DNA of 45,051 nt from a virus. The translations under genes and the position numbers were made by a program. The stretch is from positions 1 through 45,051 of IMG/VR virus record IMGVR_UViG_3300005532_000022; one strand, written 5' to 3'. The notes under the pieces are model-generated. The model was not told the DNA's origin and did no database searches. It saw nothing but the letters and a program-made list of their open reading frames with translations. Of this stretch, positions 4,025-44,368 are shown piece after piece; position 1 is the stretch's first letter, and every line of letters starts with the position of its first letter.

Positions 4025-6080
4025 AGTCTGGCTCAAATGCGCGGAAGCGGCGCGGCTCACGGGATGGAGCAAAAGGCACATCCGTCGAGTACTGAACAAC
4101 TCGAGTCGTGAATCCGAAACGCGTGGGCGGAACGGACGACTCGAGCGCGAGTATGCGCTTTCGGGATTGCCGGCGGCCGCGCAACTGAAATATGCCCGGC
4201 TTCTCCAGGGTCCGTCGCGGCAGACCGGCGAACAAACGGCCATTGCGCGCGCGAACGTCTTGCCGCTGCTTGCGAAAGCGGAAACGGAAAAGCCGATCAT
4301 CGTCGCGCTGCACGAGGAGCACCGCGACCTGGCGCACGCGCGGCTCGAGGCGCTCGAGCCGCTGCTGGAGTTCCGCCGGCGCACGAACGGCCACCGTCCG
4401 GTGATCCCTCTTCCGGACGGCCGGAAAGTGGACACGCTGAACGACCTGGCGGAGTGGATCGCGGCGCAGCAGAAGCCGCCGGTTTCGATGCGAACGCTCT
4501 ATCGCTGGCTGGACCGCTTCGACAAGGGCGGTCTCGCGGCGCTCGGCGAAGCGCCGCGTAGGGACAAAGGGCAGTCGCGCTACTTTGCGCAGCATCCGCT
4601 GGCCGCGGAATTTCTGCGGCACAAGTGGCTGAACGAGGGTCTCTCCGCGCAGATGTGCTGGGAAGCGCTGCGCCGCGACTGGAAGAACATCGGTGAGCCT
4701 GGCTATCCGCCTTCCTACAGCGCCGCGCTCGCGTTCATCAACACCATCCCGGAACCCATCAAGGTGATGGGACGACAGGGCAAAGAAGCGTACGAGCGGA
4801 AGTGCTCTCCCCATGTGCAGCGCGCGCCGGTGGATGCGATGGCCTGGTGGGTCTCCGACCATCGGCAATTCGATGTGATGGTGCGAAACACGCTGTTCGC
4901 TGAGCTGAAGCCGGACGAGCCCTATCGCGTTTGGTTCACGGCGATTCTGGACTGGGGCAGCCGGAAGATCGTGGGCTGGTGCTTCGCGCCAAGTCCGTCT
5001 TCGAGGACGATCTGCTCCGCGCTGCGCATTGCGGCGCTGAGCCACGGCTTCCCGCGGAATTTCTACTGGGACAACGGAGAAGACTACAAAAAGGTGCGGC
5101 GGGACCTCGAGCGAATCGAGCTGCCCGAAAACCTACGCTCCGTGCTGAACCGCGAAGGCGTGGGGATCACGAGCGCTCTGCCCTACCATCCGCGATCGAA
5201 GCCTATCGAGGCGCACTTCACGCACTGGTCGAAGCGCTTCGATGTGATCTGGCAGCAAGCCTACCTCGGCAACAAGCCGGGCAACCGGCCGGAAAAAGCG
5301 CGTCAGGCGGAAGCGCTGCACCAGAAATACCTAAAGGGCCAGCGTGCTCGCAGCCCGCTGCCGACGGACGCGGAATTCATCCTGGCGGCAATGCAGGCGA
5401 TCGAGGACTACAACGACAAACCCCACCGCTCGCTGCAGCACCGCTCGCCGAACGAAGTGATGGAAGAGCAGTTCCCCGAATGTCGCCGGACGGGCGCGGA
5501 CCCGCGGCTGGTCGACCTGCTCTTCTGCGAGCGGGAAATCCGCACGGTGAGGCAGGGCGGCTGCGTGCAGCTGGATCAGATGATTTACGAGCCGGACGAC
5601 GCGAGCCTGTTCGCGATGGATCTGCGGAAGGGGCAGGACGTGCTGGTGCTGCGCGATCCCTACAACCTGGGCGAAGCGACGGCGGCCGATCCGAAGACGC
5701 TGCAGTTCGTGGGCTCGCTGCGCGTCCAGGAGCTGGTCAGCCAGGCGCCCGGCGGAAGAGTGACGCGCGACCAGATCAATGCCGGCATGCGCAAACAGCG
5801 TTCCCTGCGGAAAGGCTACGCGGAGTATCTGGCGGCGCTCGGGGCCATGGCTACGAGCATGGATTGGAAAAGCGAGCGCGAGGAGCTCGTGGCACGGGCG
5901 CTCGAGAACACGGGCACGGACGGAATAGAGAAAGCGGCGCCGGGAATGGCGCGGGCGCAGGCCGCGGCCCTGCCTGCCGGCAGGCAGGCAAGAGCGAAAG
6001 CCGCGCTGCAGCCCGCTTTTATTTCGGATGCGGTGGCGGAAGACGCGGAAATCTTCCGCGAGATCCGAACGGAGGAGTGA
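4017..6080 (+). CDS. MuA-like DDE transposase
   Basis: A 687-residue transposase that cuts and joins the phage ends for integration and replicative transposition. An N-terminal helix-turn-helix (residues 3-30, 'WLKCAEAARLTGWSKRHIRR') and a following Mu-type 'YALSGLPAAAQ' segment are end-binding regions. A second HTH is near 155-175 ('SMRTLYRWLDRFDKGG'). The RNase-H-fold core has D281 ('VSDHRQF'), D352 ('YWDNGEDY') and E398 ('KPIEAHF'). A beta-barrel and a basic tail follow. GTG 4017 is chosen over ATG 3996 because it gives an 8-bp overlap with the upstream gene and is preceded by AAAGG. The C-terminal tail contains an in-frame 20-bp palindrome (5969-5988). The ATPase partner follows directly. 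Confidence 0.95.
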   Translation: MAEVWLKCAEAARLTGWSKRHIRRVLNNSSRESETRGRNGRLEREYALSGLPAAAQLKYARLLQGPSRQTGEQTAIARANVLPLLAKAETEKPIIVALHEEHRDLAHARLEALEPLLEFRRRTNGHRPVIPLPDGRKVDTLNDLAEWIAAQQKPPVSMRTLYRWLDRFDKGGLAALGEAPRRDKGQSRYFAQHPLAAEFLRHKWLNEGLSAQMCWEALRRDWKNIGEPGYPPSYSAALAFINTIPEPIKVMGRQGKEAYERKCSPHVQRAPVDAMAWWVSDHRQFDVMVRNTLFAELKPDEPYRVWFTAILDWGSRKIVGWCFAPSPSSRTICSALRIAALSHGFPRNFYWDNGEDYKKVRRDLERIELPENLRSVLNREGVGITSALPYHPRSKPIEAHFTHWSKRFDVIWQQAYLGNKPGNRPEKARQAEALHQKYLKGQRARSPLPTDAEFILAAMQAIEDYNDKPHRSLQHRSPNEVMEEQFPECRRTGADPRLVDLLFCEREIRTVRQGGCVQLDQMIYEPDDASLFAMDLRKGQDVLVLRDPYNLGEATAADPKTLQFVGSLRVQELVSQAPGGRVTRDQINAGMRKQRSLRKGYAEYLAALGAMATSMDWKSEREELVARALENTGTDGIEKAAPGMARAQAAALPAGRQARAKAALQPAFISDAVAEDAEIFREIRTEE
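5969..5988. repeat. 20-bp perfect palindrome inside the transposase gene
   Basis: CCTGCCTGCC followed by GGCAGGCAGG, encoding Leu-Pro-Ala-Gly-Arg-Gln-Ala in frame. It is located in the Ala-rich tail after the catalytic domain. It could be a short palindromic insertion sequence picked up in frame. Related GGCAGGC arms appear in the terminator at 20292-20319. Confidence 0.6.
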
Positions 6081-6851
6081 ATGGCCCAAATCGAAATGCT
6101 GCACACGAAAAGCTACAAGCTGCTCAAGGAGCGGATGGAAGAAGCCGCCGAAGAGGGCGTGAACGCGATTGTGTACGGACCGCCTTCGAGCGAGAAATCG
6201 TACGTGCTCGAAAATCTGTGCCGCAAGTTCAACGCCGCCGGAAAGCCGGCGGTCTACGTCTACTGCGGCCCGAGGTGCACGGAGACGCACATGTGGCGTT
6301 CCGTGGCCGAAGCGGCCGGCGTGAAGCTGCGCTCCTCGCTCCGCTGGGCGGCGCGCTACGGAGTGCTCGAAGCCATCCGCGGGATGAAGAAGCTGCCCGC
6401 GATCGTGCTGGACGAAGCGCAGCACCTCGACGTGGACGCGCTCGAAGGAATCCGGCAACTGCATGACCTGACGCGGCGCGAAGACCGCCGGGGCTGCGGG
6501 ATCATCCTGGCGGGGAGCCACCGGCTGCTGCAGGAATTTCTGCGTCCGTGCCGCAGGCCGCGGCTCGAGCAGATGCTTTCGCGCTTTCCGCACCGCCTGC
6601 AGCTCGAGGGGATGGCCAAGGAGGAGATCCTGACGCTCGCGGCGAAAGCCTTCGGCAACGGAAAGCCGGCGGTGCTGACCGACAAGCAGCAGAAGGCGCT
6701 GCTCGAACGCTGCACGGTCGAAGATCCGTACTTCATTTCCGCGGAGAGCGAACCGCAATCGCGGACTTACTACTCCTCGCGGCGGCTGCTCGAATACGTC
6801 CGGCAGCAGAAGAAGCGCGCGGAGAAGCCCGGAGAAAGGCGGGTGGCGTGA
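6081..6851 (+). CDS. MuB-like AAA+ ATPase (transposition target activator)
   Basis: A 256-residue ATPase. Walker A is 'GPPSSEKS' (residues 33-40, Lys39) and Walker B is 'AIVLDEAQ' (Asp111, Glu112), followed by a sensor-like segment 'GCGIILAGSHRL' around 140. MuB-family proteins bind target DNA, stimulate the transposase and give target immunity. It starts one base after the transposase stop with a GGAGG site inside the end of that gene, so the two are coupled. It is shorter than Mu B (312 residues) and lacks its N-terminal DNA-binding region, as is common in B3-type phages. Confidence 0.9.
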   Translation: MAQIEMLHTKSYKLLKERMEEAAEEGVNAIVYGPPSSEKSYVLENLCRKFNAAGKPAVYVYCGPRCTETHMWRSVAEAAGVKLRSSLRWAARYGVLEAIRGMKKLPAIVLDEAQHLDVDALEGIRQLHDLTRREDRRGCGIILAGSHRLLQEFLRPCRRPRLEQMLSRFPHRLQLEGMAKEEILTLAAKAFGNGKPAVLTDKQQKALLERCTVEDPYFISAESEPQSRTYYSSRRLLEYVRQQKKRAEKPGERRVA

Positions 6852-12118: not shown

Positions 12119-15100
12119 GTGAGAGAACCGGAAAATCCAAAGGCAAAAGTCGGAACTCTAACGCGGGGCAGTGTTTCGCTCCGCAGCGGCGTGCTCGGAG
12201 TGACGTTCCTGCTGGGCGCGCTCTTTTTTTTCTGCGGCAGCGGAGCGGCTCAAACGGTCCCGCACGTCACGGGAATGTTCAAGACGCCGGGAAACCAGAC
12301 TCCGCAGGCCGCTGGGCTGCGCTCGATTGCGACGATCGGCGCGACAGCGGTCTATGGCTCCATCGATTTTCAGCCCTATGACTCGAGCGGGAACAAGCCG
12401 GCGAGGATCCTGTGCGGCGGCGTGACATATATTCCGCAAAAGGTGCGCGCCTGGATTAAGGGCGACGGGACGCTCGTCGACAATGCGACGGGAGCGGCCG
12501 GAGTGGATCTCGTGCCTACGCAAGGCTGCACGCCTGCGGGACTCGTGATGCGCGCGACGATCACGCTGGCTCCATCGGGCGATGGACGAATAGCGAGCGT
12601 GACCTGGACGGAGGACAAAAGCCTTCCACAGCAGGCGACTGTCGACTGGGGCTCTCTCGCTGCCGCTGGAATCACCGCTCCGACCTACACTGGCTATTCG
12701 ACGATCGAGAATGACGGCGTCGCGGTGCCATCGCGGAGCATCCTGAACTTCATCGGCGGAGGATGCAGCGACAATTCATTGACGCTGGCGACGGACTGCC
12801 CGACGGGCGGCGGGGGCGGCGGAGCGACGCTCAAGACGAACGGGGTGAATAACAGCTCGCAGACGGTGCTGAACTTCTCCGATTCCGGAAAGATCAACTG
12901 GACGAGCGGCGCGGGCGGCGTGGAGCAGGCGGGAATCGTTGCGGGCTCGATCCAGGACGCGGACCTTGCGGGCGGGATCTCGCCAGCGAAAATCACGAAC
13001 ATCGCGGAGACGCAGAACAATAAAAACGCTGTGAACGGCTATGCGGGGCTGAACGCTTCGGGCTTCGTGCCGCTGGCGCGCGGCGGAACGAGTGCGGACT
13101 TGAGCGCGACGGGCGGAGCTTCTGAGGTGCTGAAGCAGACGACGGCCGGCGGCGCGATCACAGTGGGACAACTGGCATTCAGTGATATTTCAGGAATAGC
13201 TGCGGCCGCGCAAATTCCGAATCTGGACGCCGGCAAGATCACGACCGGAGTCCTGGCCCTGCTGCGGGGCGGGTTGGGCACGCTGCCCTCCGCGGGAGAT
13301 CAGCTCTTCGTTTCAACGGCAGCAAGCACGGCGAGCTGGAGCAGCGTCGCGGATTGCTCGAACGCGACGACGAGCAAATTGCTCTATGCGACGGCGACGC
13401 ATAGCTTCAGCTGCGGCACGGATCAGACCGGCGCGGGCGGGAGCGGAATCACTTCGCTGAACGGACTGACGCCCACGACGCAAGCGTTTGCGAAAGTGGA
13501 CGACGCGAACGTGACGCTCGCAATTACCTCGGCGGGTTCGACGCACACGTTCGCGATGGGATGGACGGGAACGCTCGCGAATGCGCGCGGCGGAACGGGA
13601 GTGAACTCTAGCTCGTCGACGGGAGTGCCGCGCGTGAACGCCGGCACCTGGACGTTCGACGCGAAGACCGTCAATCTGGCGGATTTTTCGGCGACGCCGC
13701 CGGCGGCGGACGGGAAGATTCCCATCTGGAACCAGAGCGCACAGCAGTATCAGCCGGGAGATCCGGTCGTCAGCTGGAACAGCGGCACGGCGCAGACGGC
13801 TGCATGGACATCCGCGACGGCCGTGGATTCCGCGGTGACCGCTTCGCTGACGAGCCCGGTGAACATGAGCGTCGTCATGGTGACGCTGCGGGCCACATCG
13901 ACGATGACCGGCGGAACGCTGAACTTCGAAGCGGACGACGGCAGCGGGAATTTTTCCTTCCCCATAGCCTGCGACAGGCTGGACACGGCGACCGTCGAGA
14001 CGACCTTCGCGCTTTCCGCGACGAACAAGGCCTGGCAGTGCAATATCGCGGGAATGTCGCAATTCCGCGTGAGGCTGAATCCGGCAATTACGGGAACGGG
14101 CACGGCGAACATCCGCGTGACGCCATCCACGGCGCCTGTGGAAGCGCAGGTGACGGTGCAGCAGGCGAGCGGCGCGAATCTGCATGTGAATGTGGACAGC
14201 GCGCCGAATCCCATTCGCATTGACCCGACAGGGACGACGACGCAGCCGGTCTCCTGGTCCGGGCAGTCAGTGACAGTTACCCAGGGGACGGGAACGAATC
14301 TGCACATGGTCTGCGATTCGGGTTGCGGCGGTTCGGGAGGCACATCTTCCAGTTTTGGAGCCACCTTTCCTTCTGCCGGTACGGCGATCGGCGCGAAAAA
14401 TGGCGCCAACATGGTGAACCTGACCGCGGACGCCTCGAACAACTTGAACGTGAACTGCGTAGTGGGATGCTCTGGCAGCGGGAGTACGACACCGGCGGAC
14501 GCTTTCGCAAACCCCACGACGGCCAGCCTGAGTTTTTCACTTCTTGGCGGATTCAATGGCACGACGTGGGACCGCTTGCGGGTGGACAGCAGCAAGAATC
14601 TGCTTGTTGGCCTGAATGCCATCGGCGGAGCGAGCTTTTCTCAAGGGCAGCGCACGATGGCCAATTCGCTTTCCATCGTGCCGGCGTCCGACTATTCATC
14701 TCCCGACACCGTGGGAACCAGCGGCGCATTGAACGCGCTGAACGCTGCAGCTTCGGTCGCGCTTAATGCCCAGCAGGGCGTTGGCGTTTTCATTGCATCG
14801 GGAACCCTGGTAGGTACGGTTGTGCCGGAAGTAAGTTACGACGGCGGCACAACCTGGGTGTCTTCCTTCTTCTTCGACCCGACAGCGCGAACAGTATCCA
14901 GTTCGCTTGTGCTGACGAATCCGAGTCCGGCGACAACGCTGACGATTCTCTCGCCCGGCGGCTCATCGAATGCGCGTGTGCGAGTCAGCAGCTTCACCTC
15001 GGGCACGGCGACAGCGACACTGCGCGCCACGATGGCGAAGGACAACACGCTGGCTACGCAGCCGGTCAGTGGAACCGTCACCGTCCAGCCTGGCAACACA

Positions 15101-15547
15101 GCGAACACGACGCCGTGGCTCACTACTGATTCGGCAACCAGCGCAACGGGTTCGGCGGTTCCATCGAAAGCTGCGTACATTGGTGGCAACAGTTCAGGCA
15201 ACCTGACCGGCATCATCGCCTGCGACAGCTCGGTCTTTCTCGACATGGCGACGGCGACGACCACGCAGCTTGTGGCGCTGTCCAGCGGAAAGAGCATTTA
15301 CATCTGCTCCTATGACATTCAGTCGAATGGAACGGCCTCAGTGAAATTGGTGTATGGCACCGGTTCGAACTGTGGCACCGGCACGACGCAGCTTACCTCG
15401 AATCTGGATTTGACGGCGCAGACAGGCCTTTCTCGCGGTTCCGGTTTGGGGATGCTCGCCAAGACGGCGGCATCTAACGCCCTGTGCGCCACATCGAGCG
15501 CAGCGGTCAACGTTCACATAGACGTGACGTACACGGTGGCGCCGTGA
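12119..15547 (+). CDS. Exported fibre-like protein
   Basis: A 1142-residue protein. Residues about 20-45 form a signal peptide or anchor ('VTFLLGALFFFCGSGAAQ'). The body is rich in Ala, Gly, Ser and Thr with repeats of the fibre type: 'PLARGGTSADLS', 'LLRGGLGTLPS', 'ANARGGTGVNSS', an early 'LNASGFVPLARGG' and a beta-rich C-terminus ('VPEVSYDGGTTWVSSFF'). Such repeats are typical of trimeric phage tail fibres, but a secretion signal is not. It lies far from the tail genes, in an operon with two more exported proteins. GTG 12119 follows GAGGGGAAAG closely. A prophage-encoded surface adhesin or secreted fibre is the favoured reading. A virion fibre acquired with a fused signal is the alternative. 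Confidence 0.65.
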   Translation: MREPENPKAKVGTLTRGSVSLRSGVLGVTFLLGALFFFCGSGAAQTVPHVTGMFKTPGNQTPQAAGLRSIATIGATAVYGSIDFQPYDSSGNKPARILCGGVTYIPQKVRAWIKGDGTLVDNATGAAGVDLVPTQGCTPAGLVMRATITLAPSGDGRIASVTWTEDKSLPQQATVDWGSLAAAGITAPTYTGYSTIENDGVAVPSRSILNFIGGGCSDNSLTLATDCPTGGGGGGATLKTNGVNNSSQTVLNFSDSGKINWTSGAGGVEQAGIVAGSIQDADLAGGISPAKITNIAETQNNKNAVNGYAGLNASGFVPLARGGTSADLSATGGASEVLKQTTAGGAITVGQLAFSDISGIAAAAQIPNLDAGKITTGVLALLRGGLGTLPSAGDQLFVSTAASTASWSSVADCSNATTSKLLYATATHSFSCGTDQTGAGGSGITSLNGLTPTTQAFAKVDDANVTLAITSAGSTHTFAMGWTGTLANARGGTGVNSSSSTGVPRVNAGTWTFDAKTVNLADFSATPPAADGKIPIWNQSAQQYQPGDPVVSWNSGTAQTAAWTSATAVDSAVTASLTSPVNMSVVMVTLRATSTMTGGTLNFEADDGSGNFSFPIACDRLDTATVETTFALSATNKAWQCNIAGMSQFRVRLNPAITGTGTANIRVTPSTAPVEAQVTVQQASGANLHVNVDSAPNPIRIDPTGTTTQPVSWSGQSVTVTQGTGTNLHMVCDSGCGGSGGTSSSFGATFPSAGTAIGAKNGANMVNLTADASNNLNVNCVVGCSGSGSTTPADAFANPTTASLSFSLLGGFNGTTWDRLRVDSSKNLLVGLNAIGGASFSQGQRTMANSLSIVPASDYSSPDTVGTSGALNALNAAASVALNAQQGVGVFIASGTLVGTVVPEVSYDGGTTWVSSFFFDPTARTVSSSLVLTNPSPATTLTILSPGGSSNARVRVSSFTSGTATATLRATMAKDNTLATQPVSGTVTVQPGNTANTTPWLTTDSATSATGSAVPSKAAYIGGNSSGNLTGIIACDSSVFLDMATATTTQLVALSSGKSIYICSYDIQSNGTASVKLVYGTGSNCGTGTTQLTSNLDLTAQTGLSRGSGLGMLAKTAASNALCATSSAAVNVHIDVTYTVAP

Positions 15548-15555
15548 GGAACGGC

Positions 15556-17154
15556 ATGAGAAAACTGCTCTTACTCGTGTTGCTTGTCACTCCCGCCTGG
15601 GCGCAATTTGGCGGCGGCAAGAAAGGCGCCGTGCGGGCTACCGGAACCGCGATGCCGACGGCGCTCACGCAATCCGGCACGAACTCGCACTACTTTGTGA
15701 ACGCGTCCGGTAAGGCCGTCTATCTGGTTGGTTCTCACACCTGGAACGACTTCCAGGACATCGGGCAAAACGGTTCGCCGCAAACTTTTGACTTCAATGG
15801 TTTCGTGCAGTTCCTGCATCAGCATGGGATGAACGCCACGTTTCTGTGGCGGAAGGACTTGCCGGTCGAGTGCAACTGGCAGGGATTTACCTGGACGCAG
15901 AGTCCGCAGCCTTACGCTCGCAGCGCGATGACCGGGGCTTCAGATGGCGGCAACAAGTTCGACTTGACTCAGTTCAATCAGGCTTATTTTGATCGCCTGC
16001 GCGAACGCGTCAAAACGCTGGGGGATTACGGCATCTACGTCGTCGTGGAAGTGTTCGATGGCAACAACGTTTCTTCGGCCAGGTGCGGGAACACTTCACC
16101 GAGCGGCGATGCCTATCCATACTCCTCGACAAACAACGTGAACGGTGTTGATGACAGCTACGCCTCGGGCGCGTGCGGGGTTGCCAGTTACACGATGACA
16201 GCGGCCAACACGATCACTGGATACCAGGACGCATTGGCACAGAAATACGTAGACACACTATTCGATCTTCCCAACGTGATTTGGGAAGTGGCCGAGGAGC
16301 AACCTGGCACGAGCTTCTCGACCGGTTGCAGCGGATACGGCGGCGCATCGAGCACGACGTTTTGGGCTCCTCACATCATGGGAGTGATTCAGGCGCGAGA
16401 AACGGGAAGACCTTACCAGCATCCGGTAGGCATCGGCGCGATGAACTGGAATGACCGGACGGGCGGCGACTCGACGCTTTACGGCAGCAGCTTCGGGTGG
16501 ATCGCTCCTACAATCGCAACGAGCATTCCGCAGTGGCCCGCGATTGTTTCCGCGAACAATCAGAGCAAGGTCGTGCTGAACGACAGCGACCACAGCTTCG
16601 GCTATCAGGCAATTCTGAACGCCGACGGCACGGTCAACGCTGCGAACACCCATGGATTCGTTTGGGAGAACCTGACGGACGGGGCCGCCGGCGTGTTCTT
16701 CATGGACCCGTACACGGTCTCCATCACGAACACCACGCCGGTACGGAACACCTGTACGTCTGTGACGAACGGAATCTGTAAGGGACTCGACGCCAAGTAT
16801 GAAAATTTTCGCGCCGAGCTAGGGCAGAGCGCCCGCTACGCCAATCAGGTGCTCGACCTGGTGAAGATGACTCCACAGCCGTCGCTGGCGAGCACGGGGC
16901 ACTGCCTTGCGAACAACGTAGCGGTTGGTGGCGAATTTCTCATTTACGCCCCCACCGGCGGAACGTTCACGGTCAATCTTTCGACGCAGAGCGGGCGGCT
17001 GATGAACGTTGAATGGTTCGACCCGACCACCAACAAGGTGAACACGGACACGACGTACACGGCGACGAGCTCGACGACACAGAGTTTCACGACGCCGGGC
17101 GGAATTTCCGCGGACGCTGTTCTTTATATCGTGGATGCTGGAGGGCACCAATGA
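15556..17154 (+). CDS. Exported glycoside-hydrolase-like protein (DUF4038/apiosidase-like)
   Basis: A 532-residue protein with a standard signal peptide ('MRKLLLLVLLVTPAWAQ'). 'YFVNASGKAVYLVGSHTWND' followed by 'FVQFLHQHGMNATFLW' and 'YGIYVVVEVFDGNN' matches the start of (beta/alpha)8-barrel glycosidases of the DUF4038/apiosidase-like group. Candidate catalytic acids are Glu244 in 'VIWEVAEEQ' and Glu371 in 'FVWENLTDG'. A C-terminal beta domain ('YAPTGGTFTVNLSTQSGRL') is common in that group. It would cut a plant or bacterial polysaccharide outside the cell, or act as a depolymerase. ATG 15556 has GAGGA 5 bp upstream. GTG 15544 overlaps the previous stop. Base composition is lower in GC than the early genes. 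Confidence 0.7.
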   Translation: MRKLLLLVLLVTPAWAQFGGGKKGAVRATGTAMPTALTQSGTNSHYFVNASGKAVYLVGSHTWNDFQDIGQNGSPQTFDFNGFVQFLHQHGMNATFLWRKDLPVECNWQGFTWTQSPQPYARSAMTGASDGGNKFDLTQFNQAYFDRLRERVKTLGDYGIYVVVEVFDGNNVSSARCGNTSPSGDAYPYSSTNNVNGVDDSYASGACGVASYTMTAANTITGYQDALAQKYVDTLFDLPNVIWEVAEEQPGTSFSTGCSGYGGASSTTFWAPHIMGVIQARETGRPYQHPVGIGAMNWNDRTGGDSTLYGSSFGWIAPTIATSIPQWPAIVSANNQSKVVLNDSDHSFGYQAILNADGTVNAANTHGFVWENLTDGAAGVFFMDPYTVSITNTTPVRNTCTSVTNGICKGLDAKYENFRAELGQSARYANQVLDLVKMTPQPSLASTGHCLANNVAVGGEFLIYAPTGGTFTVNLSTQSGRLMNVEWFDPTTNKVNTDTTYTATSSTTQSFTTPGGISADAVLYIVDAGGHQ

Positions 17155-18155
17155 AAAAACTACTTCTACTTCTAGCTTTATTTTGGGCGTTTTCAGCCAA
17201 TGCAACGATCACCCGTGTCCAGTCGAACTCTGCGCTGGGCACGGCCAATACGAGTATATCTGCATCGTTCACGACTGCTACCACGGCAGGGAACTGGTAT
17301 GGCGTGCTGTGCCGTTCGGGTAATCAGGCCGGCTGGACGCTCTCCGTTTCCGACACGGAAGGGAACACTTGGCTGTCCCTGACCGCAGCGGTTTCTGCCG
17401 GAAGCCACATGAGTCAGATATTCTACGTCGAGAATGTGAAGGGCGGAACAACGGACACGGTTACGTGTACGCAGTCGAGCGGCGTTTCCGGCACGATGGC
17501 CATTCTAATCCTTGAGTACAGCGGCATTGCAACTTCCGGCAGCCTTGACCAGCAGAATCAAACAGCAGGGACCAACAATACTGCCACGCTGACCGGCGCC
17601 AGCATAACGACAACAAACGCGAACGACCTGGTGATTGGGGGCGCGGGTCTCGGTGCCAATACGACGTTCACCGCAGGGACTGGCTATACGCTCGACGTGA
17701 GCGATGCTCGCTTGGGGTGGGAGACGCAAATCGTTTCTTCCACTGGAACATTTACCCCGACGATGAACTCCACGACGACGGCTTCGTCGTGGACTTTTAC
17801 AACCGCAGCATTCAAGGCGGCGGGCGCTCCTCCAGCAGGCGCTCCTCATCAGCTTACGACGCTTGGCGTTGGCATGGCGATGATTTCGAGTCCCGGGCTG
17901 CCCTTCTCTCTGGGATACCAGGCGAGATTCAGCATTCCCGTCGATCTGAGCGTGCTTTCGACCTATCCGCAGTGCATGGAGACCTGCACCCCGGGAATCC
18001 GGCTCTGCGACGCGAGCGGGGACTGCCTCGATTTGTACGCGGGAGACTCCTCGCTCGACTTTTCGCTGCTGGCCAAAACGGCGGATGGCGTCAAGGCCTA
18101 TCCGCTGGGGAAGGCCACGCTGACGCTGCCCTCGAGCATCGGAATGGTGCCCTGA
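17151..18155 (+). CDS. Exported beta-sandwich protein
   Basis: A 334-residue protein with signal peptide 'MKKLLLLLALFWAFSANA'. Residues 20-240 follow the pattern of an extracellular beta-sandwich domain common in soil bacteria: 'GNWYGVLCRSG', 'VSDTEGNTWLS', 'SQIFYVENVKGGTTDTVTC', 'ILILEYSG', 'TTNANDLVIGGAG'. The C-terminal 90 residues contain several cysteines ('CMETCTPGIRLCDASGDCL'), likely disulphide-bonded. ATG 17151 overlaps the previous stop and has GGAGGG 5 bp upstream, so it is co-translated with the glycosidase. A carbohydrate or surface binding partner is plausible. Confidence 0.6.
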   Translation: MKKLLLLLALFWAFSANATITRVQSNSALGTANTSISASFTTATTAGNWYGVLCRSGNQAGWTLSVSDTEGNTWLSLTAAVSAGSHMSQIFYVENVKGGTTDTVTCTQSSGVSGTMAILILEYSGIATSGSLDQQNQTAGTNNTATLTGASITTTNANDLVIGGAGLGANTTFTAGTGYTLDVSDARLGWETQIVSSTGTFTPTMNSTTTASSWTFTTAAFKAAGAPPAGAPHQLTTLGVGMAMISSPGLPFSLGYQARFSIPVDLSVLSTYPQCMETCTPGIRLCDASGDCLDLYAGDSSLDFSLLAKTADGVKAYPLGKATLTLPSSIGMVP

Positions 18156-18160
18156 CGGAA

Positions 18161-18457
18161 ATGATGCAGTCCAAGATCGAAGACGGCGACCTGGTGGTGC
18201 GGATCCCGCTGGCGGAATGCATCGAAGCGGCTAGGAAGGACCTCGAGCGGAAAAAAGCCACGGCGCTCCTTTCCGCCAGGGAAATGCAGATATTCGAGAT
18301 GATGCGAAAGAACCTGGTCCACAAGGAAATCGCCGCCGCGCTGGGCGTGGCGACGAAAACCGTGAAGACACACGCGACCGAAATCTTCCGCAAGCTGCAG
18401 TGCGAGAGCCGCGCGGAACTGCTCTACAAGTTCGGATTCGACGGGGAGGCGAGATGA
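18161..18457 (+). CDS. LuxR/NarL-type HTH regulator without receiver domain
   Basis: A 98-residue protein. Residues about 36-95 are a LuxR-type helix-turn-helix: 'LSAREMQIFEMMRKNLVHKE', then 'IAAALGVATKTVKTHATEIF' and 'RKLQ'. The 35-residue N-terminus is too short for a receiver or ligand domain. It lies 5 bp after the exported trio and overlaps the next gene by ATGA. It could activate late or cargo promoters, a role played by Mor and C in Mu, but this is inference from position. Confidence 0.75.
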   Translation: MMQSKIEDGDLVVRIPLAECIEAARKDLERKKATALLSAREMQIFEMMRKNLVHKEIAAALGVATKTVKTHATEIFRKLQCESRAELLYKFGFDGEAR

Positions 18458-18879
18458 GAAAGCTGGTAATGCTGTTGGCCATGCTGCTGGCGGCGGGAAC
18501 TTTTTTAGGGCTCGCGTTTGGGGCGGGCGCGAGACAAGCGGAAGAAAGCTCACGCAAAGGCGCGGAGACGCAAAGCAAAGCGAGCGCAGAGAAGCCCTTC
18601 CCGGTGGGTGCGGAATTCACGGAGACGCTGGAGGATTGGCAGCTGATCAACGCGGAGATCGCGCGGATCGAGAAGGCGGAAGGAACGGTAGAGATCCCGG
18701 TGAGCATCGAGAAGCTGCGGCAGCGCGCGGCGGTGAAGACGGCGCGGCTGAATAAGTGGATCCAGGACCACGGCGTGGCGGGATGGAATTACGATGCCAG
18801 GCTGGCGCGGTTCGAGCCGCCTTCTTCGCCAGCAGGCTCCGGCGCGCCAGGAGCGGCCACACCAGGGGCGAGGCCGTGA
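18454..18879 (+). CDS. Exported or anchored small protein
   Basis: A 141-residue protein starting with a signal peptide or single anchor ('KLVMLLAMLLAAGTFLGLAFG'), then a charged helical region with 'AEIARIEKAEGTVEIPVSIE' and a Pro/Gly/Ala-rich tail. No lipobox is evident. Its function is unknown. A spanin-like or periplasmic role is possible. The ATGA overlap ties it to the LuxR-type gene. Confidence 0.5.
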   Translation: MRKLVMLLAMLLAAGTFLGLAFGAGARQAEESSRKGAETQSKASAEKPFPVGAEFTETLEDWQLINAEIARIEKAEGTVEIPVSIEKLRQRAAVKTARLNKWIQDHGVAGWNYDARLARFEPPSSPAGSGAPGAATPGARP

Positions 18880-20341: not shown

Positions 20342-20653
20342 ATGAGATTCGCTCCGCAAATGATGCTGGCGGCACTGCTCGGCGCGGCGGCGCTCGCGCC
20401 GGGATTCACGATACAAGCCCCGGAATCCGAAATTTTTGTAAAAGTCGTGAGGGTCGACCGGGCGCGGCGGGAAGTGGAAGTGGCCCTGACCGCGCCGCCA
20501 AAAGAGACGCGCATTGTCTTCGACGGCGACCCGAAAGGCCTGACGGCCGGCGACTACGTAAAGATGCGGCTCTTCTCGTCGGCGGCCGGCGGAGCGAATG
20601 CGAAGGTGGGCGGGGCGGAACTGCGGTCGCGCCTGGTGGTCTGGAAGTTCTGA
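20342..20653 (+). CDS. Small exported protein of the lysis block
   Basis: A 103-residue protein with signal peptide 'MMLAALLGAAALAPGFTIQA' and a small beta-rich domain ('EIFVKVVRVDRARREVEVAL'). The function is not recognised. It is first in the lysis block and overlaps the transglycosylase gene by one base. GAAGGAG lies upstream of ATG 20342. Confidence 0.55.
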   Translation: MRFAPQMMLAALLGAAALAPGFTIQAPESEIFVKVVRVDRARREVEVALTAPPKETRIVFDGDPKGLTAGDYVKMRLFSSAAGGANAKVGGAELRSRLVVWKF

Positions 20654-21126
20654 TGAGCACGCACTGGCCCAATTCGCCGCAGTTTGCAGGACGCAGCGAA
20701 TGCATCCAGATCGCGCGGATGCAGGCGATGGCCTATTCGCTCGAAAGCTCGCTCGTGTGCGCGGTGATCGAGCAGGAGTCGGCGTGGAACCCCTGGGCGA
20801 CGCGCTATGAGCCGGCATTCTTCGCGAAGTACGTCGCGCCGCTCTACACCAATCAGAAGATTTCGCCGACCGAAGCCTACGGGCGCGCGTTTTCCTATGG
20901 ACTCATGCAGGTGATGGGCCAGGTGGCGCGGGAGCGCGGATTCGAGGGCGATTTCCTTCCGGAGCTCTGCAATCCCTATGTGGGAGTGGACATCGGCTGC
21001 CGGCACCTCGCCGCGCTTTGGGAGAAGAACCATGGCGACATGTCGCGCACGCTGCTCGCCTGGAACGGCGGCGGGAATCCGGAATATCCGCAGCAGGTGA
21101 TGGCGCGGCTTGGGAATTACCGATGA
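20653..21126 (+). CDS. Lytic transglycosylase endolysin (SLT fold)
   Basis: A 157-residue protein of the soluble lytic transglycosylase fold. 'SLVCAVIEQESAWNPWATRY' holds the likely catalytic Glu42 in the E-S-x-W-N-P-x-A motif. 'FSYGLMQVMG' and 'TLLAWNGGGNPEYPQQV' are the other family motifs. It cleaves peptidoglycan to release phage. There is no signal peptide, so it needs a holin or is released by membrane collapse. Membrane proteins that could serve lie downstream. Confidence 0.85.
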   Translation: MSTHWPNSPQFAGRSECIQIARMQAMAYSLESSLVCAVIEQESAWNPWATRYEPAFFAKYVAPLYTNQKISPTEAYGRAFSYGLMQVMGQVARERGFEGDFLPELCNPYVGVDIGCRHLAALWEKNHGDMSRTLLAWNGGGNPEYPQQVMARLGNYR

Positions 21127-21695: not shown

Positions 21696-22222
21696 GGAAG
21701 CGGCGCGCAGTGAGCGGTGCGGCTCCGATCGTTTTGCTGGCCGTGTGCGCGGGCCTCGAAGCCTCGAGCGCTCCTGCCGCCTATCGGCACCACGGGGCGG
21801 CGCTCCTGAACGATCTGAAGGCGACGCCGGGCGCCGCGCGGACGACGGATGCGAAAGCGGTGTGCGGCGGCGAGTCGACGAAGGATTTCCGGCACACCAC
21901 GCCGGCAATGAAGAAGAGCGTCTGCCAGGCCTACGGGCTCGAAGCGCATTGCTACGGCTTCGAGAAAAACGAAATCGACCATTTGATTTCGCTGGAGCTC
22001 GGCGGCGCGGATGACGTGAAAAATCTCTGGCCGCAGCCGTACTACCAGCATCCCGGAGCACACGAGAAGGACGTGGTCGAGAACTACCTGCACAAGCAGG
22101 TGTGCGCCGGAAAGGTGCCGCTCGCCGAAGCGCAGAAGGAAATCGCCTCGGACTGGTATGCGGTTTATCTGGCGATCGAAAAAGAAAAAGTTTCCGCGGG
22201 GAAAACAGGGAGGGAGCGATGA
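21686..22222 (+). CDS. Exported HNH-like nuclease
   Basis: A 178-residue protein. Residues 8-32 form a signal peptide. 'NEIDHLISLELGGADDVKNL' followed by 'WPQPY' is the core of an HNH/beta-beta-alpha metal nuclease of an exported type. Asp98-His99 are the likely metal and catalytic residues, Asn113 the third, with His122 and His126 nearby. Phages often carry an HNH protein near the terminase to aid packaging, but those are cytoplasmic. The signal peptide points to the periplasm instead. ATG 21686 has GAGAAAGG upstream. Confidence 0.65.
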   Translation: MPVRKRRAVSGAAPIVLLAVCAGLEASSAPAAYRHHGAALLNDLKATPGAARTTDAKAVCGGESTKDFRHTTPAMKKSVCQAYGLEAHCYGFEKNEIDHLISLELGGADDVKNLWPQPYYQHPGAHEKDVVENYLHKQVCAGKVPLAEAQKEIASDWYAVYLAIEKEKVSAGKTGRER

Positions 22223-23702: not shown

Positions 23703-24335
23703 ATGCAGGGCGAGCACAAAGCGGGATACCGGAGGCCGCGCGCCGGCGAGAAGCGCGCGGTGCTGCAGCCGCTGCGCATCGACAAGCTTTCCGCGAAAGT
23801 GCGCGAAGTCATTCTCGCTTCGCGAGCCGCGGGAAAGACCTGGCAGGAAACCGCGCTGGCGGCTTCGGCGGAAGCCGGCGAAACTCTGCACGACACCACG
23901 GTGCGGCGCTGGTACGACCTGCGCGTCGAGCAGGTGCAGAAGGAAGTCATGGAGCAGGCGGAGCGCTCGCGCGCCATCGCGGCGGCGTTCGCGGCGAAGG
24001 GATTCGACAAGCTGCCCGAAGCCGCGCTGAACGCGCTGACGAGCGAAGTCTTCGCGGTGATGGAAGCGGGCGAAGCGGCGAGCCGCGAAAAAGCGCTGGG
24101 CAACCTGGTTTTCGTGATGAGCAAGCTGATCACGGCGCAAGCCAAGCAAAAGGCCGTGGAGCTCGAAGCGGAAAAGATCGAGCTGGCGAAGCAGAAGTTC
24201 GAGCAGCTCAGGAGCAAGGCGGAAAAAGCGACGAATGAAGCGGCGGCAAAACTCGGGAAAGGACGGCAGCTCACCGTCGCGGACATCAACCGCATCCGCG
24301 AGCGCGCCCTCGGACTCCCGCCGATTGCAGGTTAG
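23703..24335 (+). CDS. Small terminase-like protein (Mu gp27, DUF3486)
   Basis: A 210-residue helical protein. The N-terminus has an HTH-like segment ('LSAKVREVILASRAAGKTWQ', then 'TTVRRWYDLRVEQ'), followed by a long coiled region ('QKAVELEAEKIELAKQKFEQ') and a C-terminal tail. DUF3486 proteins precede the large terminase in Mu-like phages and act as the DNA-recognising subunit that starts headful packaging. ATG 23703 follows the previous stop directly. Confidence 0.8.
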   Translation: MQGEHKAGYRRPRAGEKRAVLQPLRIDKLSAKVREVILASRAAGKTWQETALAASAEAGETLHDTTVRRWYDLRVEQVQKEVMEQAERSRAIAAAFAAKGFDKLPEAALNALTSEVFAVMEAGEAASREKALGNLVFVMSKLITAQAKQKAVELEAEKIELAKQKFEQLRSKAEKATNEAAAKLGKGRQLTVADINRIRERALGLPPIAG

Positions 24336-25941
24336 CGAAGCGGCGGGGCGTGCGGCGGAGCATCTTCCGGCGGTACTGCCGCTGCGTCCGTATCAGCGGC
24401 GGTGGATCGACGACGGCGCGCGCTTCAAGGGCGCGGTGAAATCCGCGCGCATCGGATTTTCCTTCGCGACGGCCGGAGAAGCGGTGCTCGATTGCCTGGC
24501 GCATCCCGGAACGACCTGGACGATCGGCAGCCATTCTGCCGCGGGCTCGCAGGAATTCGTCGAAGAAGGCGCCGGGAAGATCATCAAGGCCATCAACGCC
24601 ACGGCCGAGATTTACGACGAAGCGTTCGCGGACGAGCTTGGGACAACGGACATTCAGGTGAAGAAGATCCGCTTCCCGAACGGCGCGCGGATCCTGGCGC
24701 TGCCCGCGAATCCACGGACGATGCGCGGATTTCCGGGAAACGTCGTGCTCGACGAATTCGGCCACCACGAAGGCAGCTATGCGATCTGGGCGGCGGCTTC
24801 GCGGCAAGTGGCACTCGGCCACAAGCTTCGCATGCTTTCGACGCCGAACGGCGAGCAGGGAAAGTTCTACGACCTGGCGCACGAGTTCGGCATGGACGCG
24901 GGCGTTGCTCCGGAAACGAATCCCGTGAAGCGCGGTCCGTGGAGCTGGCACTGGATCGACATCCATATGGCGATCGCGGAAGGCTGCCCGATCAGCCTGG
25001 CGGATATGCGCGAGCTCTATCGCGGAGACGATGACACGTTCGCGCAGGAATTTCTCTGCGTCTTCCTGAAGGCCGTGGGCGCCTGGCTCGACCTCGAATT
25101 GATTGCGCGGGCGGAAGACGAGGCCGCGACGCTCGACTGGCCGGCGGGCTACCTCCCGGCCGGGCCGCTGTATCTCGGAATCGACGTCGGGCGCGACGGC
25201 GACCGCACGGTCGCATGGCTCGACGAAATCATCGGCGACGTCGCCTGGACGCGAAACGTGAAGCGCCTGCACAACGTGCCGTTCTTTACGCCGGAGGGCG
25301 AGACGCTCGAGAACGACCAGGCGCGCCTGCTGCTGCCGCTCGTGCGCATGGCGACGCGGACGGCGATGGACGCGACGGGCATCGGCCTCGGACTCTTCGA
25401 ATTTCTCGCGTCGCGCTGCCCGGGGAAAGTGATGGGCGTGAATTTCGGCGGCAGCGTCCCGGCGGCCGGAGACGTTCCCGCGGCGTACGGCACGGCCGCC
25501 GGCACCGTGAAGATCAAGACGGACATGGCGGTGCGGATGAAGCAGCGCTTCGAGAAATCGCTGAACCGCATCCCGCGCGATCTCGAGATCCGCCAGGAGC
25601 TGCAAGCGGTCAAAAAGGAATACTCGGGCGGAGCGATCCGCTTTGACGCGCCGCGCATCGAGATCGAGACGGCCGTGGCGGGAACGAAGAAGAAGGCTTT
25701 CGCGCACGCGGACTCTTTCTGGGCGAAGGCTCTCGCGGACCTCGCGGCCACGTCCGCGGCGCCGGCGGCTTTCGTGGGCGTGACGGAAAGCGAGCATGCG
25801 GCTCTCGCCGGGAAAACCAGAGGAGACGAGCCGCGCGGGATCATGAGCCGGAGTTTCGCCGAAATACAGCTGCGCGAAGCGCCCGCGCGGGAAGACGGCG
25901 AGCTCATCGGAACGGGACACAGGAGCAGGCTGTGGAGCTGA
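24325..25941 (+). CDS. Large terminase subunit (Mu gp28-like)
   Basis: A 538-residue packaging ATPase-nuclease. 'FKGAVKSARIGFSFATAGEA' is the Mu-type Walker A region ('KSxRIG' form) and 'NVVLDEFGHHEG' is Walker B with its catalytic Glu. 'YLGIDVGRDGDRTVAW', 'MDATGIGLGLFEF' and 'FAHADSFWAKALA' supply the acidic residues of the RNase-H-like nuclease. It cuts and pumps DNA into proheads. The frame is open back to ATG 24235, but that start overlaps the previous gene by 101 bp and adds a Ser/Arg-rich tail that looks out of frame. TTG 24325 gives an 11-bp overlap and is preferred, though neither has a good ribosome site. Confidence 0.9.
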   Translation: MQVSEAAGRAAEHLPAVLPLRPYQRRWIDDGARFKGAVKSARIGFSFATAGEAVLDCLAHPGTTWTIGSHSAAGSQEFVEEGAGKIIKAINATAEIYDEAFADELGTTDIQVKKIRFPNGARILALPANPRTMRGFPGNVVLDEFGHHEGSYAIWAAASRQVALGHKLRMLSTPNGEQGKFYDLAHEFGMDAGVAPETNPVKRGPWSWHWIDIHMAIAEGCPISLADMRELYRGDDDTFAQEFLCVFLKAVGAWLDLELIARAEDEAATLDWPAGYLPAGPLYLGIDVGRDGDRTVAWLDEIIGDVAWTRNVKRLHNVPFFTPEGETLENDQARLLLPLVRMATRTAMDATGIGLGLFEFLASRCPGKVMGVNFGGSVPAAGDVPAAYGTAAGTVKIKTDMAVRMKQRFEKSLNRIPRDLEIRQELQAVKKEYSGGAIRFDAPRIEIETAVAGTKKKAFAHADSFWAKALADLAATSAAPAAFVGVTESEHAALAGKTRGDEPRGIMSRSFAEIQLREAPAREDGELIGTGHRSRLWS

Positions 25942-27428
25942 ACTTCAGCCAGGTGATGCGCGAAGCGAACGCCGCGGAAGCGGAGCGCCAGCAGGAAATG
26001 CGCGCGCGTGCGAAAGAAGCGATCGCTCCGGAGCTGTTCGCGCTGACGGCCGGAGACTCCGAAGATCCCCGCTACCGGAGAATTACTTCGCCGGCGGTGA
26101 TCCGCGATCTGAATCCGCTGATGCAGCTGCGCATGCAGCAGGTCTGTTTCTATCTTTCGGTGACGACGCCCTTCGGAAAGCGAATCGTCCGCGTGATGGT
26201 CGACTACGTCGTCGGCGAAGGCTTCAAAGCCGTGGCCGAGGATCCGGACGTGCAGCAGCTGATCGACAAGTTCTGGACGGATCCCGCGAACAAGATGGAC
26301 GAAAACGTCGAATCGCTCTGCCAGGAGCTGCTCGTTTTCGGCGAGCTGTGCATCCCGGTCGCGGTGAACCCCGTGGACGGCTTCGTGAAGCTCGGCTACA
26401 TCGACCCGCAGGAAATCGAATACGTGGAATTCGCGACGATGCAGACGCAGCTCTCCGAGGAGATCACCGTGCCGGCGGCGGTGCGGCTGCGGCAGAGGCT
26501 CGGCGAATCCGAAGGGCGGAGGCTCAAGATCATCAGCCGGGACGACGACCCTCAATCGCCGACATTCGGAAGGCTGACGGGCGACTGCTTCTATTTCGCG
26601 ATCAACAAGGCCAAAGCGGCTTCGCGCGGAATCTCGGAACTTTTTTCGCTGGCGGACTGGATCGACGTGTTCGACCAGATGGTCTTCGATTTCGCCGACC
26701 GCGTGCGCCTGCTGAATTCCTTCGTGTGGCACTACGTGCTCAAAGGCGGCACGGAGCAGCAGGTCGAAGACCTGAAGAAGAAGGTCCTGAAGTCGCCGCC
26801 GAGGCAGGGCGGCCTGCAGGTCACGAACGACCAGGTGGACATTGAAGCGCGCACGCCGGACCTCAAGGGCGCGGACATGAGCGAAGCGGCGCGCGTCGTC
26901 AAGCTCTACGGCATGGGCGGCGCCGGCCTGCCGGCGTGGTTTTTCGCGGATCCGGTGGACGCGAACCGCGCTACGGCCGAAGAGATGGCCGGGCCGACCG
27001 GAAAAATGCTGACGAACAAGCAAAACATGATGAAGCGCGTCGTCAGGGCGATCATCGATTTTGCTATCGACCAGGCGAGGCAGCACGGCGTTCTGGCGGA
27101 AGACGCCGACGGAAGCTGGACGCTGCAGGTCCCGGATCTTTCGGTGAAAGACATTGCCTCTTCGGCGACGGCGCTCCAGACGATCACGGCCTCAGTCGCG
27201 CAAGCGGAGGACCGCGGCTGGATCCGCGGCGTGACGGCCGCGCGCGCGGTGCACACGCTGCTGACGCAGGTGGGCGTGGACGTCGGCCAGGACGAGTACG
27301 ACCTGGCGCAGCAGGAGAAGCAGGACCGCGAAGCCGAGCAGCAGAACGCGCTGAACGATCAGAAGAATCTGGCGGACGCCCTAAAACAGGCGGCGGGGCA
27401 GAAACCGCCCACGGAGATGGTGCAGTGA
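25932..27428 (+). CDS. Portal protein
   Basis: A 498-residue protein following the terminase with a 10-bp overlap. 'GKRIVRVMVDYVVGEGFKAV', a beta-rich wing ('GYIDPQEIEYVEFATMQ') and 'GLPAWFFADPVDANRATAEE' followed by 'MLTNKQNMMKRVVRAIIDFA' fit a phage portal with wing, stem and crown. The C-terminus is a charged helix. Portals form a 12-mer ring at one vertex, the channel for DNA and the site where terminase docks. GTG 25932 is the start. Confidence 0.85.
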   Translation: MELNFSQVMREANAAEAERQQEMRARAKEAIAPELFALTAGDSEDPRYRRITSPAVIRDLNPLMQLRMQQVCFYLSVTTPFGKRIVRVMVDYVVGEGFKAVAEDPDVQQLIDKFWTDPANKMDENVESLCQELLVFGELCIPVAVNPVDGFVKLGYIDPQEIEYVEFATMQTQLSEEITVPAAVRLRQRLGESEGRRLKIISRDDDPQSPTFGRLTGDCFYFAINKAKAASRGISELFSLADWIDVFDQMVFDFADRVRLLNSFVWHYVLKGGTEQQVEDLKKKVLKSPPRQGGLQVTNDQVDIEARTPDLKGADMSEAARVVKLYGMGGAGLPAWFFADPVDANRATAEEMAGPTGKMLTNKQNMMKRVVRAIIDFAIDQARQHGVLAEDADGSWTLQVPDLSVKDIASSATALQTITASVAQAEDRGWIRGVTAARAVHTLLTQVGVDVGQDEYDLAQQEKQDREAEQQNALNDQKNLADALKQAAGQKPPTEMVQ

Positions 27429-28324
27429 GCTCGGACGCGAAGCAGCAATTCGGAGAGAAGGTGCGCGAGCTGATCCGCGAAGCGCGGCAGCTGGCTCCGG
27501 CGGCGCGGCGCAACGTGATCGAGCTGCTCGAAGAAGCGCGAAAGAGAATCGCGGGGGAAGTTTCCGCGATCGATCCGGCGAGCTTCCAGGCAGCGACGCT
27601 GCGCTCGCTCGCGCAGTCGATCGACAGGACGCTCGACCAGTTCCGGCGCGAGCTGACGCAGACGGTGACTTCGGCGCAAAGCGGAGCGTTCCAGCTCGGC
27701 GCGCAGCAGATCGACGCGCCGCTCGCGGCCGCGGGCCTGCCGACGCCGGCGTTTGGCGGCGTCGACCGCACGACACTCGCGATCGCCCAGGGCTATACGG
27801 CGGATCTGATCTCCGGACTGACGCAGGACGCCGCGGGAAAGCTGAACGCGGCGATTCAGCGCGCTTTTCTGGGCGGCCAGACGATGGGGCAGATCATCGA
27901 CCAGATCGGCCGGGCGATCAACAACGGCAAGGAATTCAGCGGGCTTTTCAGCCCGATCGGCGAGCGGGCGACGACCATCGCGACGAACGAGATCCTGCGC
28001 GTGCATTCGATGGCGGGCCAGGCGCGGCTCGAGGACTTGCAGCGGCAAACTCCGGGAATCCGCAAAAGCTGGAAGCACATTCCGGTGGCGCGCATGCCGC
28101 GGCCCTCGCATCTGGTTGCCGACGGCCAGGTGCGCAAGGTCGACGAGCCGTTCAACGTGGGCGGCGAGGATCTGATGTTTCCGCGCGATCCGAACGGATC
28201 TCCGGAAAACACGATCAACTGCCACTGCCTGCTCGTTCCGGAAGTCACAGACGAACTGCTGAAGCCGACGGATGCGCAGAGCCGGCTGCTGAAGGACTTG
28301 GGGCTGTCCGTTTCGGCGGCTTAG
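27425..28324 (+). CDS. Head morphogenesis protein (SPP1 gp7 / Mu gpF-like)
   Basis: A 299-residue protein. The C-terminal domain has 'ATTIATNEILRVHSMAGQAR', 'KSWKHIPVARMPRPSHLVAD', 'EPFNVGGEDLMFPRDPNGSP' and 'NTINCHCLL', the diagnostic motifs of the SPP1 gp7/Mu F minor head protein family. Such proteins are bound to the portal and enter the head in a few copies. The helical N-terminus differs. GTG 27425 overlaps the portal stop. Confidence 0.9.
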   Translation: MSSDAKQQFGEKVRELIREARQLAPAARRNVIELLEEARKRIAGEVSAIDPASFQAATLRSLAQSIDRTLDQFRRELTQTVTSAQSGAFQLGAQQIDAPLAAAGLPTPAFGGVDRTTLAIAQGYTADLISGLTQDAAGKLNAAIQRAFLGGQTMGQIIDQIGRAINNGKEFSGLFSPIGERATTIATNEILRVHSMAGQARLEDLQRQTPGIRKSWKHIPVARMPRPSHLVADGQVRKVDEPFNVGGEDLMFPRDPNGSPENTINCHCLLVPEVTDELLKPTDAQSRLLKDLGLSVSAA

Positions 28325-28367
28325 AGATTCCCGCCCCGGCCGGATAGCCGGGAGAAGGAAGGAAACG

Positions 28368-28754
28368 ATGGATAGCGAAAAGGTCCAAGTACCGGCGGCG
28401 CCGAGCCTGCCGGGATTCGACTCCGCAGCGCAGGCGAAATGGCGCAGCGAATGGCTCAAGGCGTTCAAGCAGGCGCAGGTGGATCATCAGGGCGATGAGA
28501 TCACCCAGCGCGCCGTCGCGACCCGCGAAGCGAACCGCGTCTTCCGCGTGGAAGCGCCCGCGAGCTACGAGGAAGCGGCGGCGATCGAGGACTTCAAGGT
28601 TCTCTACCGTGGCATGGCGCCTAACGGGAAGTTCTGCGTGGTGACGATCGACGGGAAGAAGCATTACTTCGAAGCGCCGGCCGCGCCGGCAGCCGAGGCG
28701 CCGAAGGAGAAGAGCGTCGCGAATGAGAAGGAAAAAGGCGGCGCGGCGAAGTAG
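28368..28754 (+). CDS. Hypothetical head-region protein
   Basis: A 128-residue protein between gpF-like and protease genes. A helical part ('AKWRSEWLKAFKQAQVDHQG') is followed by a small beta unit ('DFKVLYRGMAPNGKFCVVTI') and an Ala/Lys/Glu-rich tail. No family is recognised. GGAAGGAAACG precedes ATG 28368. It may help head assembly. Confidence 0.6.
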   Translation: MDSEKVQVPAAPSLPGFDSAAQAKWRSEWLKAFKQAQVDHQGDEITQRAVATREANRVFRVEAPASYEEAAAIEDFKVLYRGMAPNGKFCVVTIDGKKHYFEAPAAPAAEAPKEKSVANEKEKGGAAK

Positions 28755-28794
28755 GTAGCCGGGCCGAAGAAATTCGCAGCGGGGAGAAACGTCG

Positions 28795-43900: not shown

Positions 43901-44368
43901 GGGACGGCAAAGAGCGGCGTTCCGTGGTCCTCAACGAAGTCCATTGACACCTACGGGTCTTCATCTGACCTTTGGGGCGCTACGCTTACCCCAAGCGACG
44001 TGAACAACGCGAATTTTGGCGTTGTGCTGAGCGCGGAGTTGTTTGCTACGGCGGTATGGACTGGGGTGCGGTTTCTGGCCTCTACCGTCCTCGCCAAAGT
44101 GGATTCAGTAACGATTGTGGTTCACACGTCCGGCGGGGGAACGTACGAAGGCCGCGCACGGCTGAAAATCGGAAGCCTCTTGAGCAACGAGATTGCGATG
44201 GTTGACCCTCAAACATACGCATCCGGTACGGCCGTCATCAGCGCCCCGCCGACCGGAACGGACATCACTGTTGAGGTGCAGGCCGAGGTTGTCTCTGGCG
44301 GCATCACGGTGGACGCCGAGTTCTCGCAAGTGACGTACACCGACCAGGCGAAGGAGCACTTCATATGA
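40976..44368 (+). CDS. Tail tip / central fibre protein with C-terminal binding modules
   Basis: A 1130-residue protein. Residues 1-450 are a tail-tip hub of the J/TIM-barrel-associated type ('SYILERNGKICLYADKPRAS', 'FEWTGFEDSLAVEPGDVVTL'). Then come shaft-like repeats ('KDDGTSGRFAVSSIDANRRA', 'VADGTTFRRTSATYVDASNR', 'VTDGTTYARTIASDLTGNRL'). A carbohydrate-binding-like beta domain begins around residue 530 ('ENGNFEASPSILPPPGYQLY'), and further beta domains follow. It should contact the host surface. Base composition falls from about 42560 on, as if the binding part was acquired separately. ATG 40976 follows the previous TAG by 2 bp. Confidence 0.75.
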   Translation: MAASALSFDLTTAFLNQPAAIAYGLVRGAGNLVLQQQLADKATLAFYVLGEGPWDSLVRLWINKKAVSLPSSEAHFHPGVDGEIGFGMGTSSTGGDQHVDAFWSSVPTLSPLTYSRYAWLALKVPPDPGAPDAALDVLADYQAMKCRIFDASGNQTSFQWTQNPAWWICDRIIRKFILREAKASQPLTSAELARIDWQSFSDAAAYFDEPLGSGVPRFSDGGVVWIDGTLTEDRVIEQLLLMCRSYILERNGKICLYADKPRASIFTFSADNVAPGTFLAKKANLRSGKNQIQASWREVSRASGSVDDATRFALAGDVFDHEAHQRAIGVRGPGLSLIPKALPLALDFGNNTAERVARLSLFQLARQLGDDVDANSGYNAPFEFEWTGFEDSLAVEPGDVVTLDKSLNEEFGATDCEILTVIEQPDGTRAFTALEYEPNAFIDVAPTQQPIEAPVPGAGLPSPLSLDGSSNLVVSLGKTKDDGTSGRFAVSSIDANRRAQIDFTQGGHLGKNLNNIDDTSTYMRTPAVVGDAIIENGNFEASPSILPPPGYQLYNFTPTLAYDTSTQFSGSQSIKITSPASGSGGIITTRRVMCRAGDTLFASVRAKVVSGSGSAAMTISFRDASGTSVGGNVVTTASTSWTLLQMTQTAPAGTVYATFELYASGASTTVEFDEHYARYVRILDNEVADGTTFRRTSATYVDASNRIVKLRRTLGAVDVDADDVSRHDEVTNHIGGLNVATVSLDSKVTDGTTYARTIASDLTGNRLDFSKPLLNKHLGNIPDDATSDRVAVSNTAKVGAGYAYNVITADNLYTVGAYHDSAAKQKVTTSRGGTTTSATYVTVASFSLVLPASATKYQGMLSVAKSGSGASDPNTKVAGTGADDSSSGGTVAWTGPGNITTAGNSVYATASLTDTDGSGQDVVTHFLKATNFGFAIPAGATIVGIEVKFERFALITNNAGLDDLAVRLLKAGVLTGTAKSGVPWSSTKSIDTYGSSSDLWGATLTPSDVNNANFGVVLSAELFATAVWTGVRFLASTVLAKVDSVTIVVHTSGGGTYEGRARLKIGSLLSNEIAMVDPQTYASGTAVISAPPTGTDITVEVQAEVVSGGITVDAEFSQVTYTDQAKEHFI

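Follow-up and report, generated by a model that had tools for sequence, protein, structure and literature searches.

A block of consecutive genes in a Mu-like phage encodes a fibre-like protein (A), a glycosidase-like protein (B) and a beta-sandwich protein (C), and is a member of a wider class of cassettes in tailed phages, made up of fibre, spike and glycan-enzyme genes whose products bear signal peptides. This class of exported-fibre cassettes is real, widespread and little recognised. Sequence features strongly indicate that A, B and C are exported through the Sec pathway and that the cysteines of A and of C pair up outside the cytoplasm. A search of open-access papers returned no description of such a class, which is weak evidence, as subscription journals and preprints lay outside its scope; according to one paper, phage targets of diversity-generating retroelements have no signal peptides (PMC6199706).

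The cassette and its phage

The window, which is the whole stretch of DNA analysed here (45,051 nt), corresponds to an entire IMG/VR contig and is a near-complete genome of a Mu-like transposable siphophage. It carries genes for MuA (4167-6080), MuB (6081-6851), a lytic transglycosylase (20653-21126), the large terminase, portal, head morphogenesis and fused head protease/major head proteins (24325-31485), a tape measure (36356-38995) and a tail-tip protein (40976-44368). Gene calls were made with our own scripts, and the contigs are metagenomic. The N-terminal half of the tail-tip protein is conserved in relatives (about 64% over 464 aa), and its C-terminal part, which differs in length between them, is a candidate receptor-binding region. 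Further small signal-peptide-like genes are found around the lysis transglycosylase (20342-20653 and 21710-22222); the second is about 60% conserved in relatives, with a weak HNH-like match as its sole family match. Since one contig of a Terriglobia (Acidobacteriota) metagenome-assembled genome pairs a close homologue of A with MuA, MuB and many shared early genes, the assignment of the phage host to Acidobacteriota (Terriglobia) is well supported.

All genes of the block lie on the plus strand. Gene A (12119..15547, 1142 aa) has a GTG start and encodes the exported fibre-like protein, gene B (15556..17154, 532 aa) an exported GH140/apiosidase-like glycosidase, and gene C (17151..18155, 334 aa) the exported beta-sandwich protein. 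Their linkage, as described in the initial annotation, is confirmed: B and C overlap in an ATGA, and Shine-Dalgarno-like sequences are found upstream of A (GAGGGG), B (GTGAGGA) and C (GGAGGG). The exported block runs on beyond C, with a gene for a GerE/LuxR-type HTH protein (18164..18457), possibly a late or middle regulator, followed by a fourth signal-peptide gene (18457..18879), which overlaps the HTH stop and encodes a small protein with no cysteines in its mature part.

The head protein is common to six contigs (69-90% identity), and the cassette locus was compared in two of these, G002 and G005. In both, the order is A with a signal peptide, other exported genes, the HTH gene directly behind the cassette, and the small exported gene. 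B was looked for in these two contigs and is absent from both, so that the conserved three-gene set originally envisaged gives way to one in which A, exported partners and the HTH and small exported genes recur. The C domain is also present in exported partners in G002 and in a further locus, L163. The C-type exported proteins of G002 and G005 (L052, 6613-8835, minus strand, and L054, 12502-13239, plus strand) have a basic C-terminal tail, NKRKKLE(K/Q)LE, which C of the window does not carry.

In protein A, the signal peptide is followed by an N-terminal domain that is conserved (about residues 46-195), and then by fibre modules that vary. Its description as fibre-like is borne out by RGGT/RGGL motifs at positions 321, 383 and 490 and an NGTTWDR motif at 813, while searches of A itself against PHROG and Pfam gave no match. 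The AF2 model of its N-terminal region (pLDDT 50) was not taken into the fold search. For B, the AF2 model (pTM 0.83) consists of a TIM barrel and a C-terminal sandwich, and its best match among solved structures is the GH140 apiosidase 8t9w (Foldseek E 4.5e-17), with BT_1012 also matched, in agreement with the glycosidase barrel first proposed. B is termed GH140-like because its C-terminal domain passes the cut-off of PF12904 (30 bits against 22), while the match to PF13204 fails (23.8 bits, below the gathering score of 26.5). The two residues first put forward as its catalytic acids, Glu244 and Glu371, are not conserved in an alignment of 11 sequences, in which E248, D343, D345 and H346 are invariant. 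From this alignment, E248, D343 and D345 are candidates for the catalytic acid pair.

Near-full-length homologues of B, with up to 52% identity, are found on Terriglobia contigs, several of them in plainly non-phage surroundings, and the closest relatives identified are secreted proteins encoded on Terriglobia chromosomes. C-like domains are joined to a B-like enzyme in a single chromosomal protein at locus L160, and as one locus and long frame at L153, the protein of which is nearest to B in the tree (on a long branch, and in a clade without strong support). Because of these secreted chromosomal relatives and the two loci joining B-like and C-like parts, B and C look like host-derived cargo. 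The L153 and L160 fusions suggest host secreted proteins of this type as the source from which the phage genes were taken or split off. Single-protein scans of viral contigs with B, C and MuA returned no relative, which for MuA reflects a sensitivity limit, as G002 carries a MuA that is 58% identical. Among phages, B was found in the window phage only. The best explanation is that A represents the phage-type core of the cassette, and B and C exchangeable cargo from the host secretome.

Signal peptides and cysteine counts

Signal peptides were called with our own rule, based on the basic-hydrophobic-AxA architecture, rather than with SignalP. The N-terminus of A runs through SGVLGVTFLLGALFFFCGSGA into AQ and then TVPHV, with predicted cleavage near AAQ; that of B is MRKLLLLVLLVTPAWA followed by QFGG (predicted cleavage between AWA and Q), and that of C is MKKLLLLLALFWAFSANA followed by TITR (predicted cleavage between ANA and T). 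An alternative start of A at 12191 was rejected, as it would cut the signal peptide, and the GTG at 12119, which has a ribosome site, was used. With this rule A, B and C score positive, in line with the clear signal peptides noted initially; of 143 core phage proteins, none does. In the alignment of A relatives, no sequence is shared across the signal region, while conservation is high in the mature domain that starts behind AxAQ. The close relatives of A, which are 65-72% identical to the window protein where their N-terminal parts align with it, all carry a signal peptide and keep all four early cysteines of A. A diverged signal region combined with a conserved mature start is what a real signal peptide under selection would show.

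The number of cysteines provides a second line of evidence. Even counts are favoured in exported bacterial proteins (PMC7678975). The mature part of A has 16 cysteines, whose spacing corresponds to eight likely pairs (99/137, 216/227, 413/432, 618/641, 732/736, 780/784, 1035/1063 and 1085/1123); C has six, and B an odd number, seven. Among signal-peptide-bearing homologues of A modules, 25 of 26 have an even mature count (p 8e-7, cysteine p-values being inflated by relatedness, with the within-family contrast clear), and the clearly unexported homologues mostly have 0-3 cysteines, or 7 in 1575 residues. Five proteins scored as unexported by the rule (L004, L015, L084, L086 and L089) were left out of these clean negatives; rich in cysteine, and with a signal peptide that is visible or likely from another start, they are read as missed calls. 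For phage proteins that are 180 aa or longer and have at least two cysteines, even counts are seen in 74 of 85 exported members, compared with 115 of 187 that lack a signal peptide; the exported ones also have twice the cysteine density. This even-cysteine signature constitutes independent evidence of export.

These observations also bear on whether the N-terminal hydrophobic stretches might instead stay uncleaved, as membrane or assembly segments of ordinary virion proteins that remain in the cytoplasm. Some starts were indeed picked among alternatives, which would leave room for such segments. The recurrence of the basic-hydrophobic-AxA architecture and its absence from the 143 core proteins, the conserved mature start right behind AxAQ, and the confinement of the even-cysteine signature to signal-peptide proteins all argue against it, and we consider it very improbable.

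Exported fibre cassettes in other phages

Modules of A were found in 34 viral loci, and also in the podovirus record MW202554 and two Synechococcus phage records. They also occur in Terriglobia prophages: the profile of the A N-terminal domain matched 17 of 399 Terriglobia genomes, some weak matches being chromosomal. Three of the weak matches (L090, L091 and L092), in ordinary chromosomal contexts, were not counted in the statistics on phages. Proteins with A modules mostly have signal peptides, and many are encoded in runs of consecutive exported genes. Adjacent exported pairs numbered 49, compared to 22.7 +/- 3.4 in 1000 shuffles (shuffle maximum 34) in which each locus keeps its own total of exported genes, the loci having been chosen for holding such genes.

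In MW202554, a complete podovirus record with no annotated integrase, four consecutive signal-peptide genes come directly after the portal gene (L037, 9877-15377) and encode a fibre-like protein, a protein of 195 aa, a lectin-like protein and a tail-spike-like protein annotated as endopolygalacturonase. Locus L165 (G359) has an exported trio of fibre, C-like and fibre proteins between tail-tip and lysis genes, and L163 an A-like/C-like pair upstream of a terminase-like gene. Synechococcus phage Ssp-JY42 has two consecutive exported genes in its fibre region (L036, 11935-14722), the first of which is a lone copy of the C-terminal domain of A; this run would be a good experimental entry point. 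In Synechococcus phage S-SRP01, an unexported relative lies among the capsid genes. A scan of 71 exported proteins gave matches to tail-fibre, tail-spike, minor-tail and pectin-lyase families in PHROG, and to GH26, GH5, GH28, pectate-lyase and laminin-G families in Pfam, each family being matched by one to three of these proteins, and among the genes adjoining exported runs are matches to terminase, portal, head-tail adaptor, tail and endolysin families. The block was initially noted to be far from the tail genes, which is correct for the window and does not hold for related cassettes elsewhere, which lie in the structural/lysis region. The accompanying premise, that fibre-type phage proteins do not carry signal peptides, fails for this class.

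The virions of tailed phages are assembled in the cytoplasm, and fibres and spikes are assumed to be made and attached there. The matches to virion families raise the question of whether the exported fibres could nevertheless be virion parts, which would fold and form disulfides in the periplasm, join tails at lysis and bind receptors. Such a role would be consistent with the tail-fibre, tail-spike and minor-tail matches, with cassettes occupying fibre positions, either behind the tail tip or next to portal/terminase genes, with the combination in A of a conserved N-terminal domain and variable C-terminal modules, and with the S-SRP01 relative. It is at odds with the site of virion assembly and with the apparent origin of B and C from host secreted proteins and not from phage tails; in addition, the C-terminal part of the window tail tip is itself variable and could be the receptor binder. 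We regard a virion role as possible, though unlikely. The broader idea that the fibres and spikes of a widespread class in tailed phages would reach the virion from outside, by Sec export, periplasmic oxidation and attachment to tails once the cell lyses, is held just as tentatively; we know of no description of fibre attachment from outside the cytoplasm for tailed phages.

Possible function and relation to known systems

The cassette is continuous with the phage operon, and a search for promoters at the cassette found none above chance, which is a weak test in a non-model host. Together with the presence of cassettes among structural/lysis genes elsewhere, this favours expression in the lytic cycle as a general rule. 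A prophage could instead express the cassette and alter the surface or sugar use of the lysogen, or exclude other phages. The phage is Mu-like and temperate, B and C are host-derived secreted carbohydrate-active proteins, and their G+C content (0.58) is lower than that of most phage genes (about 0.60-0.66), all of which would fit lysogenic conversion. The operon continuity, the promoter result (for what a weak test is worth) and the related cassettes in late regions and in a podovirus genome without annotated integrase speak against it, making it unlikely in our view.

We give about an even chance to the proposal that A, B and C are exported during the phage programme and act outside the cytoplasm as free surface-binding or glycan-cutting proteins. 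The cassette proteins would be made during the lytic programme, as their position and the weak promoter test suggest, and would cross the inner membrane via Sec, with their cysteines oxidised outside the cytoplasm. A, as a free protein, could then bind a surface glycan or receptor, while B, with C as a partner domain, could cleave polysaccharide at the cell envelope or in the matrix around it. Progeny would leave the cell more easily and would not be recaptured by the same receptor on debris. Three observations count against this proposal: many of the exported relatives have their matches in tail families of virions and are encoded at fibre positions, the mature cysteine count of B is odd, and B was found in this phage only.

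Tail fibres and spikes determine the infection range of phages, and relatives with sequence signs of export are found here in a large environmental phage set, including the two Synechococcus phage records and the complete podovirus record. This points either to an extra fibre-assembly route in tailed phages or to a common release of free fibre-like adhesins and glycan-cutting enzymes, and both alternatives bear on infection range, superinfection and soil polysaccharide turnover.

Compared with tail fibres and spikes (PHROG tail categories), the cassettes share modular fibre repeats, pectate-lyase spike folds, the PHROG matches of exported relatives and a late-region location in several phages, and differ in their predicted Sec signal peptides, probable cysteine pairs and runs of exported genes. 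With GH140 apiosidases (PF13204/PF12904; BT_1012, 8t9w), B shares the modelled fold and the C-terminal domain; it differs in its sub-threshold PF13204 match, its low identity and in being encoded by a phage, its substrate class and catalytic pair being putative. Like the carbohydrate-active auxiliary metabolic genes of soil phages, B is a host-derived glycosidase with a signal peptide in a soil phage, but it is part of an exported fibre cassette and not a lone metabolic gene. T5 Llp is a small phage lipoprotein that masks the receptor. It resembles A in being a phage-made exported protein, with a proposed action on the receptors of the producing cell, whereas A is large and fibre-like, and our script found no lipobox motif in it.
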